From contig JNKP01000001.1 of NCBI GenBank assembly GCA_000702085.1, positions 930,001-994,000 of the forward strand: DNA of 64,000 nt, written 5' to 3'. Made by a program: the position numbers and the translations under genes. Below, piece after piece: positions 4,728-7,112 of the stretch; position 1 is the stretch's first letter; every line of letters starts with the position of its first letter. Under the pieces are notes generated by a model. It searched no databases and was not told the origin of the DNA. It saw only the letters and a program-made list of their open reading frames with translations. Origin of the DNA: Lachnospiraceae bacterium P6A3. GTDB taxonomy: Bacteria; Bacillota; Clostridia; Lachnospirales; Lachnospiraceae.

Positions 4728-4877
4728 TTACTTTGTTTCCTTATGAAGTGTATGCTTCTTGCAAAATCTGCAATACTTCTTGATCTCCATGCGGTCAGGC
4801 ATGGTCTTCTTATCCTTGGTGGTGTTGTAGTTGCGCTGTTTGCACTCGGTGCAAGCAAGTGTAATCTTTGTACGCAT
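4728..4877 (-). CDS. rpmG: Ribosomal protein L33, zinc-ribbon form
   Basis: A 49-residue protein, [12 protein letters not shown] to THLHKETK-like end (exact end HTLHKETK). All four zinc ligands are present: C9, C12, C36 and C39 in two CxxC pairs, so this is the zinc-containing (C+) form. It is the first gene of the rpmG-secE-nusG cluster and has a promoter at 4943-4972. A second, zinc-poor L33 gene lies at 34581-34742 next to znuA. Confidence 0.96.
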
Positions 4878-4942: not shown

Positions 4943-4972
4943 AATGTATCACACCCCAACTCATATCGTCAA
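4943..4972 (-). promoter_or_regulatory. Promoter of rpmG-secE-nusG
   Basis: On the minus strand TTGACG (4967-4972), an 18-base spacer and TACATT (4943-4948), about 65 bases upstream of the rpmG start. The -35 matches that of the rplJ promoter. Confidence 0.7.
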
Positions 4973-5059: not shown

Positions 5060-5215
5060 GGACGTCTTTCGCTTTTAATATTCAACACGCACGCGCCTCC
5101 CGGCTCCGCATTTTCACGTAACGGTACTAAATTCGAACTTCGCACAGCTCGTTCTCATTAAGTACCGACGCGAAAATAAGGGTGCGCTTTTGAATATTAA
5201 AAGTGAAAACCGTCC
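5060..5215. repeat. Large imperfect palindrome, copy 1
   Basis: A 156-base element whose ends are inverted repeats (5060-5085 against 5190-5215, 23 of 26 matching). The pairing continues inward: an arm with GCGCCTCCCGGCTCCGC, absent from the other arm, then CGGTAC/GTACCG. It is homologous to the element at 5309-5467 in inverted orientation. The outermost arm sequences differ between the copies, yet each remains self-complementary. No coding capacity, transposase or clear target duplication is visible. Confidence 0.75.
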
Positions 5216-5308
5216 TGTTTGCAGCAATGAAAGAAAGTACAGATATTTCCGTGCCCTTGTTGCATACGAGGAGGTAAAGGAAACGGAACGTCAAATTGGA
5301 ATAATCAA

Positions 5309-5467
5309 GGGCCGGCCTTTGCTTTATATGTTTATAAGCACACCCTTGTTTTGCCGTCAGCACTTAGCGAATGCAAGCGTCAGCGTGGCATGAGCTTAGT
5401 ACTGCTACGGCAAAACGCGGAGCCGAGAGGCGCGTGTGCGGTAAACATATAAAGTGAAGACCGGCCC
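5309..5467. repeat. Large imperfect palindrome, copy 2 (inverted relative to copy 1)
   Basis: A 159-base element with 26-base ends (5309-5334 against about 5442-5467, 23 of 26 matching). One arm carries GCGCCTCTCGGCTCCGC, matching copy 1, and the inner stem is CAGTACT/AGTGCTG where copy 1 has CGGTACT/AGTACCG, so paired positions change together. It ends 14 bases from the stop codon of the acyl-CoA synthetase gene and could also help end that transcript. Confidence 0.75.
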
Positions 5468-5480
5468 GTAAGCATTTCTA

Positions 5481-7112
5481 TTACAGTTCGTTTTCTTTTC
5501 CGACGAGGCCCTCTACGCTGTAGCGCTTACGAAGGAGGGGCTTTTCGATCTTGCCGGTAGGGTTGCGGGGCACTTCATCGAAGATGATCTTGCGGGGACG
5601 CTTGTAACGGGGCAGTCCGTTGCAGAATTCTTCGATCTCCGCCTCGGTACAGGTCATGCCGTCTTTTATGGAAATAATGGCGCCGGCAATTTCCCCGAGT
5701 CTGGGATCCGGAAGTCCGATAACCGCAACATCCTTGATCTTGTCATGCTTTCTGAGATAGTCCTCGATCTGGACGGGATAGAGATTCTCACCGCCGGATA
5801 CGATAACGTCTTTCTTACGGTCTACGAGATAGATGAATCCGTCCTCGTCGCGCATTGCAACGTCACCGGTGTAAAGCCATCCGTTCTTGAGAACTTCTGC
5901 GGTAGCTTCGGGATTTCTGTAGTAGCAGGTCATGACACCGTCGCCCTTTACGCAAAGTTCGCCTGCTTCACCCTGCTTTACTTCATTGTCGTTCTCGTCT
6001 ACGATCTTGCACTCCCATCCGTAACCGGGAACACCGATTGCACCGACCTTGTGTATGTTCTCCATTCCCAGATGTACGCAGCCGGGTCCGATGGATTCGC
6101 TCAGACCGTAGTTGGTATCGTACTTGTGGTTAGGGAAATATGCCATCCATCTGCGGATAAGTGAAGGAGGCACGGGCTGAGCGCCGATGTGCATGAGTCT
6201 CCACTGTGACAGTTCATAATCTTCGATCTTGAGGTCTCCGCTGTCGAGGGAATCAAGGATATCCTGAGCCCAGGGCACAAGGAGCCATACAATGGTACAT
6301 TTCTCTCTCGATACGGCATCAAATATATAGGAAGGTTTTGTTCCTTTTAAAAGCACGGCACGTGAACAGCTTACAAGGCTTCCCATCCAGTGCATCTTGG
6401 CTCCTGTGTGATAGAGAGGAGGAATGCAAAGGAAACAGTCATCGCGGGATGTCTGATGATGATTCTGCTCAACCTTGGCTGCGGTCATAAGGCTTAAATG
6501 CTTATGAAGGATTGCCTTGGGAAATCCTGTGGTTCCCGATGAAAAATAAATAGCCGCATCATCGTCGTCTTTTAATTCGATTCCGGGATTTGCGCTTGAG
6601 CAATCCGCAACGAGCTCGCGGTAGCTTTCAGCGAATGTGGGGCAGGTCTCCCCCACGAAGATAAGTACTTTATTGGTAAGCTTATCGAGAGACGATTCGA
6701 TTCTTCCGATAAACTCGGGTCCGAAAAGGAGAACATCAACTTCGGCAAGATCCGCACAATATACGATCTCGTCAGCGGAATAACGGAAGTTGAAGGGAAC
6801 CGCAAGAGCGCCGCTCTTAAGGATACCCATGTAAATGGGAAGCCACTCGAGACAGTTCATCATAAGGATGGCAACCTTATCGCCTCTTCCCACACCTCTG
6901 CTGAGAAGCATGTTGGCAACGCGGTTTGCTTTCTCGTCAAACACGCTCCAGGTGATCTCTCTTCTGTAAGGCTGTGCATCGGTCTGCTCGATGAGTGAAT
7001 ACTCTTTCCAGCTGACCCTTCTGGTCTCTTTCTGCTCGGGGTTAAGCTCGATAAGAGCAACCTCGTCCCCGTGTTCCCGTGCATTCTTTTCCAGATAGCT
7101 TGTAATAGGCAT
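5481..7112 (-). CDS. AMP-forming acyl-CoA synthetase / AMP-dependent ligase
   Basis: A 543-residue member of the ANL adenylate-forming superfamily, which activates a carboxylic acid as acyl-AMP and then usually forms the CoA thioester. Core motifs are complete: the phosphate loop YFSSGTTGFPKA near residue 187, NYGLSES, YTGD, the hinge RKKDVIVSGGENLYP and the catalytic lysine in NPTGKIEK near residue 517. The form resembles medium/long-chain fatty acyl-CoA or carnitine/crotonobetaine CoA ligases; the substrate cannot be read from sequence. Cytosolic, no targeting signal. The next gene upstream (M23 hydrolase) is 27 bases away. Confidence 0.88.
   Translation of the reverse strand: MPITSYLEKNAREHGDEVALIELNPEQKETRRVSWKEYSLIEQTDAQPYRREITWSVFDEKANRVANMLLSRGVGRGDKVAILMMNCLEWLPIYMGILKSGALAVPFNFRYSADEIVYCADLAEVDVLLFGPEFIGRIESSLDKLTNKVLIFVGETCPTFAESYRELVADCSSANPGIELKDDDDAAIYFSSGTTGFPKAILHKHLSLMTAAKVEQNHHQTSRDDCFLCIPPLYHTGAKMHWMGSLVSCSRAVLLKGTKPSYIFDAVSREKCTIVWLLVPWAQDILDSLDSGDLKIEDYELSQWRLMHIGAQPVPPSLIRRWMAYFPNHKYDTNYGLSESIGPGCVHLGMENIHKVGAIGVPGYGWECKIVDENDNEVKQGEAGELCVKGDGVMTCYYRNPEATAEVLKNGWLYTGDVAMRDEDGFIYLVDRKKDVIVSGGENLYPVQIEDYLRKHDKIKDVAVIGLPDPRLGEIAGAIISIKDGMTCTEAEIEEFCNGLPRYKRPRKIIFDEVPRNPTGKIEKPLLRKRYSVEGLVGKENEL

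Follow-up and report, generated by a model that had tools for sequence, protein, structure and literature searches.

REP sequences and their doublets, the REPINs, are the described systems closest to the elements reported here. According to the accessible text of PMC3116915, REPINs are inverted doublets of intergenic imperfect palindromes, separated by a spacer, in which compensatory changes are common, and some REPs lie directly behind stop codons (accessible text of PMC12306157). The main text of PMC3733652, as far as it is available, contains neither 'clostridi' nor 'firmicutes'. The MITEs and the ERIC, RU-2 and Correia elements are small, non-autonomous and intergenic, and some bacterial elements of the MITE type carry transcribed RNA structural motifs, as stated in the accessible part of PMC2229807. 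A further point of comparison is given by the ribosomal-protein leaders of Rfam (L10, L20, S4-Clostridia), which are structured RNAs of ribosomal-protein operons.

Here we analysed a window of 64,000 nucleotides from Lachnospiraceae bacterium P6A3 (contig JNKP01000001.1), together with the remainder of that genome and with genomes of its genus, family and class. The window elements share with REPINs the intergenic imperfect palindrome, the inverted doublet with a spacer and the compensatory changes. They differ from REPs by their length of about 157 bp instead of 20-40 bp, by a GNRA three-way junction and a variable outer stem, and by a low copy number, with three copies in their own genome and, among the matches listed, 1-26 in each of the 29 genus genomes (of 31) that have any. 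They also lack the unpaired GTAG/CGTC end tag described in the accessible text of PMC3733652; the CGT../..ACG letters of our elements belong to an internal paired segment beside a bulge, and the bulge letters vary among copies. A literature search, mostly outside subscription journals and partly limited to excerpts, returned no description of this hairpin family.

Organization of the locus

A preliminary description of this DNA, made from its letters, had reported two palindromes (156 and 159 bp) in inverted orientation and separated by 93 bp, and both their coordinates and their orientation were borne out by our analysis. The features of the locus are as follows (we call the window's own kind of element type A).

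4728-4877, minus strand: neighbouring rpmG-like ORF, from the sequence, which we take to encode ribosomal protein L33
4943-4972, minus strand: promoter-like site ahead of rpmG, 9/12 matches (1 found in the region, 0.5 expected by chance)
5060-5215, minus strand: copy 1, type-A element of 156 bp; minus is the strand with the GNRA loop and the tandem G.A
5095-5104, minus strand: GNRA mini-hairpin of copy 1, GCC-GGGA-GGC, from the sequence, the folds of both strands and the alignment columns
5122-5167, minus strand: inner hairpin of copy 1 (CTTAATGAG...CGAATTTAG), with tandem G.A and one U.U mismatch; 63.4 bits with hairpin model R1
5216-5308, no strand: 93-bp spacer separating copy 1 and copy 2, without promoter-like site
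5309-5467, plus strand: copy 2, type-A element of 159 bp; plus is the strand with the GNRA loop and the tandem G.A
5358-5404, plus strand: inner hairpin of copy 2; 55.4 bits with model R1
5422-5431, plus strand: GNRA mini-hairpin of copy 2, GCC-GAGA-GGC, from the sequence, the folds of both strands and the alignment columns
5481-7112, minus strand: neighbouring ORF, from the sequence, presumably an AMP-forming acyl-CoA synthetase/ligase

In each copy the 26 terminal bp on either side pair with one another at 23 positions, the end sequences are unlike between the copies, and CGGTAC/GTACCG in one copy corresponds to CAGTAC/GTGCTG in the other, all as previously claimed. The block GCGCCTC(C/T)CGGCTCCGC had been described as unpaired; this does not hold, since most of it is paired, and its opposite strand forms the mini-hairpin GCC-GRGA-GGC, which is capped by a GNRA tetraloop and is part of a three-way junction. 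Both copies fold far better than shuffled sequences, with z of -7.7 and -7.6 on the two strands of copy 1 and of -8.6 and -8.8 on those of copy 2, and 0 of 200 shuffles as good on either strand of either copy. The strand carrying GCC-GRGA-GGC gives the better fold in both cases (copy 1, minus, -76.6 vs -67.4 kcal/mol; copy 2, plus, -90.3 vs -86.2 kcal/mol), and the mean fold energy of 143 collected elements is about -85 on the GNRA strand vs about -79 on the other. The core occurs a third time in the same genome, as copy 3 on another contig, behind a trmU-like gene, where we take the genes to be trmU and tsaA; model R1 finds exactly these three copies in the genome.

A dispersed family of hairpins

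The element is not unique to this locus: searches of genus, family and class with the model showed that relatives carry a dispersed family. With the core of copy 3 as a DNA query, matches were obtained in 35 of 299 genomes of the family. The part common to the elements is a hairpin, CTTARYGAG-NNNN...NNNN-CGARYTTAG, which on one strand has tandem G.A and one U.U mismatch. Model R1 matched, with E of at most 0.01, 134 of the 299 genomes in the family, and it matched 29 of the 31 in the genus (1-26 matches per genome among the matches listed); the best 20 candidates were scored per genome in the family scan, so that higher counts per genome are lower bounds. In a class-wide sample, 14 of 391 genomes matched with E of at most 0.001; as read from a listing sorted by kinship, 10 of these are among the 16 members of the window's own family and 4 among the roughly 375 other genomes. 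A pattern scan of named genome contigs gave at least 115 stretches, whose titles refer to Lachnospiraceae or to other Clostridia; the exceptions are four that give 'bacterium' alone and one 'Bacteroides sp.'. These data show that the hairpins, of type A and of the operon type (type B) treated below, are dispersed repeats of Lachnospiraceae-type bacteria.

One genome of another family of the class (G619) has at least 15 weak hairpin matches, for which a transfer or a deeper age may be considered. The strict hairpin pattern gave 0 matches in viral contigs, and the 17-mer of the mini-hairpin arm gave 12, which is about the number expected by chance on a rough estimate; a phage or plasmid origin was rejected, plasmids and phages being without match.

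Comparison with Rfam gave 0 matches at the gathering score in the window and, with E up to 10, three weak matches at the locus, all far below gathering. Over the hairpins of 20 loci no Rfam match was found, and the matches in these loci fall elsewhere.

Fold and covariation

As read from the sequences, the predicted type-A fold consists of four parts: (i) a variable, paired outer stem, (ii) a three-way junction, (iii) the GNRA mini-hairpin and (iv) the conserved inner hairpin with tandem G.A. Other copies keep this fold and covary, in one alignment of 30 hairpins and in another of 25 whole elements. The hairpin alignment took in 30 of 41 hairpins; 92.4% of its cells are paired, 8 of 14 pairs are changed on both sides (a number reached by 17 of 500 shuffles), and the covariation score is 0.355 against 0.143 in shuffled alignments, 0 of 500 reaching it. 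The whole-element alignment comprises 25 of the 27 listed type-A elements, all from the window's genus, the plus-strand element of L403 and L389 being left out for their differing 3' arm. Here 88.3% of the cells are paired and 50 of 63 pairs are changed on both sides, with 331 cells changed on both sides vs 116 after shuffling. The score is 0.528 vs 0.190 shuffled and at most 0.134 in slid versions of the structure, the structure used being the fold of copy 2, one of the aligned sequences, a choice that in itself gives this structure an advantage over slid ones. Further pair types exceed the shuffles weakly (64 of 500 reach the value). The arms of an element match one another (score of at least 12) in 98 of 143 elements, vs 14 of 600 trials with arms of different elements.

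By alignment column, the loop of the mini-hairpin reads GAGA in 10 elements, GCGA in 5, GAAA in 5, GCAA in 3 and GGGA in 1, which makes GNRA in 24 of 25; the remaining row (L373) is misaligned at the loop and has GAAA by eye. A conserved GNRA loop with varying letters is a hallmark of RNA, and this loop suggests that the fold is one of RNA. An unguided search found, in five rows of the same alignment, a rival hairpin of 3-4 bp with another loop just 5' of the GNRA one and with at least as many pairs. In 271 type-A regions an unguided tetraloop search, which is noisy, gave GNRA in 91 of 267 cases vs 202 of 4880 shuffled ones. In one metagenome-assembled genome (L138, about 6758-6848) a second tandem-G.A hairpin stands at the usual place of the GNRA mini-hairpin.

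Orthologous loci

The relative G309, whose NusG and TrmU are 98% and 96% identical to those of the window's genome, has elements at both loci. Its rpmG and the stretch upstream, including the site at 4943-4972, are nearly identical to ours; the elements themselves differ. In the outer helix of copy 2, 20 pairs are the same as in G309, 9 are compensated, 1 is changed on one side and 2 are paired in one genome only. For copy 1 the corresponding figures are 17 same, 9 compensated, 1 one-sided and 3 paired in one only, with 2 unpaired in both, and for copy 3 against G332 they are 21 same, 6 compensated, 0 one-sided and 3 paired in one only, with 2 unpaired in both. Summed over the three own copies, the outer helix thus shows 24 compensated and 2 one-sided changes, and 8 of its pairs are broken in one of the genomes compared. 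Comparison of G309 with G332, G323, G304 and G324 at the trmU locus yields, in total, 7 compensated and 6 one-sided pairs and 8 that are formed in one genome of the two, so that the signal of compensation in these four further ortholog pairs is weaker than in the three own copies.

Pairs of elements are present at the trmU locus in G323, G309, G332 and G304, and at least one element in G324; none was seen there in G306. In the window's genome this locus holds copy 3 and, behind it, a stem without core (L002, about 1674-1710), which is probably what a deletion of the tip left of a palindrome, the second element present there in G309, G332, G323 and G304. At this locus G309 and G332 have the two elements in exchanged order, as an inversion of the doublet would produce. 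The window pair itself is almost unchanged in G323 (L402). Since elements occupy the same loci in relatives, the copies at both loci are read as old and inherited, with local loss. An origin of the matching arms in an inverted duplication of the flank at insertion was set aside as unneeded at orthologous loci, where the copies differ by compensated changes.

The earlier conclusion that changes on both sides of a stem imply selection on folding is supported by the covariation in relatives and by these orthologous loci, with the caveat that arm-to-arm copying in palindromes could also yield compensated changes in the outer stem. In the case where template switching copied one arm onto the other, the fold would persist without selection and the core alone would be constrained, in its sequence. 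The 24 compensated against 2 one-sided changes, with 8 pairs broken in one genome, are in agreement with such palindrome mechanics, as are the occurrence of all four Watson-Crick types at several outer positions and the apparent tip deletion at a palindrome of the own genome. We nevertheless consider this explanation unlikely, given that the core covaries too, that the GNRA loop is kept despite its varying letters and that the operon type has strand-specific G-U pairs.

The three-way junction, the GNRA loop, the covariation and the presence, in relatives, of copies at both these loci would also suit an independent family of small-RNA genes, the fold then being the gene product and not a structure of the spacer. 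Against it, the 93-bp spacer between the copies contains no promoter, the one weak terminator site, at the foot of copy 2, equals the number expected by chance, and the window elements show no intrinsic terminator in the form of a G+C-rich stem followed by a T run. Copies number 1-26 per genus genome among the matches listed, they are gained or lost at a locus, and they are multiplied in tandem and in inverted arrangement, all of which makes such a gene family quite improbable.

Doublets and mobility

The 18 close type-A pairs of the fetched loci (less than 600 bp apart), several of which are mutual orthologs and five of which come from regions fetched as apparent pairs, comprise 15 divergent, 3 tandem and 0 convergent ones; like REPs and REPINs, type A has in this respect a fixed relative orientation of the doublet. 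Among the genus matches listed there are 19 close opposite-strand pairs, all divergent by eye. The other close pairs are on the same strand in 43 of 44 cases. At four loci (L097, L098, L239, L253) hairpin units form tandem arrays behind genes, with a period of about 116-129 bp. Inverted doublets with compensatory changes are the known design of REPINs; the present elements differ in their GNRA junction, in arms that vary yet pair and in the hairpin shared with operons.

The likeness to REPINs raises the possibility of a purely DNA-level doublet without any RNA part, in which the single-stranded hairpins would be substrates of a trans-acting HUH transposase (Y1/RAYT) and the conserved hairpin its binding site. 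REPINs are likewise inverted doublets that have a spacer and show compensatory changes (accessible text of PMC3116915), type A has no bias of gene orientation, and the own genome contains one Y1_Tnp gene. About 215 kb separate this gene from the window copies; the gene sits amid its own unrelated inverted repeats, and the arrangement of a cognate RAYT flanked by the hairpin repeat is absent there. The mobiliser of RAYT/IS200 type suggested in the preliminary description was looked for in the own genome and in 299 family genomes, and no association emerged: of the 134 genomes with the hairpin 83 have Y1_Tnp, vs 92 of the 165 without it (Fisher p 0.29), and five genomes without Y1_Tnp carry 11-15 hairpins among the matches listed. 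A DNA-level doublet would moreover leave the GNRA loop and the sense placement of type B unexplained. The form with terminal inverted repeats described below makes target duplications, which Y1 transposases are not known to produce. We therefore regard the explanation as having a low probability. At L048 of the own genome (C1:719941-720264 and flanks) a RAYT/Y1_Tnp-like ORF has on either side a copy of a long palindrome that is unrelated to the hairpin family and has the core GTGACAGTGGGGACGCTACTATTTTGTCATCCG, and a separate REPtron-like element stands beside small ORFs.

In two other genomes, G299 and G300, the hairpin lies inside elements of 201-212 bp with the terminal inverted repeat (TIR) TAGGYRATTGCGAAAC. 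Matches to the TIR number 49+50 in G299, 35+41 in G300, 23+23 in G302 and 1 in G301. Among 18 TIR elements collected from three genomes, 11 bear the hairpin by the strict pattern, and target duplications of 9-13 bp, scored with one mismatch permitted, accompany 10 of these 11 vs 2 of the 7 hairpin-less ones. Because of its TIRs and its 9-13-bp target duplications, the TIR form of G299 and G300 is a DNA transposon without genes of its own, and mobility is shown for this form in these two genomes. At the window copies neither terminal inverted repeats nor a target duplication were seen by eye. As for an autonomous parent transposon, none was found: the sole long TIR pair that was read, of 1.9 kb (L442), has no transposase-like ORF by eye.

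Like MITEs and the ERIC, RU-2 and Correia elements, the window elements are small, non-autonomous and intergenic, and some of their relatives have TIRs and target duplications. They are unlike these families, as described, in that the ends of the elements of the window's genus are not fixed inverted repeats and vary from copy to copy, yet pair, the conserved part being the centre. In other genomes (L081-L084 and the CAJTEN loci L127-L194) the core was seen by eye within further MITE-like frames with other ends. Some of the CAJTEN insertions seem, again by eye, to be nested in another palindromic repeat and to have direct repeats of about 9-11 bp.

The operon type and strand preference

The type-B set consists of 108 hairpins that have the same core and miss the strict type-A pattern; by eye it includes some type-A-like copies (L259, L280, L287-L291, L315). 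The kinship of the window type with this operon type is based on one shared hairpin, as judged from its sequence. Genes around hairpins were called with a crude longest-ORF script, which places 6 of 93 and 19 of 112 hits inside its own ORFs. With these calls, 45 of the 108 type-B hairpins have both flanking genes in sense, 26 an antisense gene upstream and a sense gene downstream, 7 both in antisense and 6 a sense then an antisense gene, the others being inside crude ORF calls (19) or at edges (5). For the 53 with a sense gene upstream, 20 start -5 to 13 nt from the stop codon and a second cluster is found at about 68 nt. The 19 upstream proteins that were read have C-termini of ribosomal-protein type and others; we take their genes to be rpsH, rpsL, rpsM, rpsN, rpmJ, pgk, ssb and others. 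Type B shares its setting, the ribosomal-protein operon, with the structured RNAs of the Rfam ribosomal-protein leaders. It is unlike them in that it lies behind the stop codons of many genes, often in tandem, and in that the Rfam matches in 20 loci fall off the hairpins.

Within the loci of the type-A pattern (80 of the 115 pattern-scan loci were used), the 93 hairpins show no gene-strand bias: 29 have both genes in antisense, 22 both in sense, 14 and 8 are mixed, 14 are at edges and 6 inside ORFs. At the variable pairs of the hairpin, G-U cells outnumber A-C cells by 23:6 in type B and by 15:10 in type A. In the outer stem of 25 type-A elements the ratio is 42:34, with 100 other mismatches, and in the type-A core it is 36:15, one pair giving 15 of the 36; G-T pairs in the folds of the two strands number 572 vs 524. 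The strand preference is weak in type A, the window's own type.

Interpretation and significance

The preliminary description had left the choice between a mobile hairpin element and a structured RNA family. The two are not mutually exclusive, and each stands in part: mobility in some relatives (target duplications in 10 of 11), and RNA signatures on one strand (the GNRA loop and the sense placement of type B after stop codons). The best reading, which we hold with moderate confidence, is that the elements are non-autonomous intergenic repeats of REPIN/MITE-like character whose fold is under selection, and for which we infer a role as RNA.

In this reading the window palindromes are two divergently oriented members of a family of intergenic repeats that is dispersed and non-autonomous. 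The fold would form as RNA, on the GNRA strand, in transcripts that cross the spacer. For the doublet of the window, transcription reading through from the ligase gene would yield copy 1 in the GNRA sense. By analogy with the REPs of E. coli (accessible text of PMC12306157), the folded RNA may be a stable structure of the mRNA end or of the spacer, involved in protection, in processing or in the slowing of terminating ribosomes. Insertions with the type-A fold would be tolerated or useful between genes, which would explain a drifting sequence in which the pairing is kept.

A more speculative and rather doubtful extension is that the tandem-G.A hairpin would be the putative site of an RNA-binding factor of Clostridia. 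The host would use it in the stop-codon-proximal spacers of its ribosomal-protein operons, and small mobile elements would have acquired the same RNA module, with its GNRA three-way junction and drifting paired arms, so that their insertions would be handled by the factor and tolerated.

If the favoured reading is true, a bacterial family common in animal guts would harbour an as yet unnamed class of intergenic repeats that fold and covary strongly, and two features that are usually separate, a transposon-like spread and an RNA hairpin directly behind the stop codons of ribosomal-protein genes, would be joined in this class. It would offer a direct way to study stop-codon-proximal hairpins outside E. 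coli, and it would let one ask whether selection or arm-to-arm copying keeps the arms of palindromes matched.
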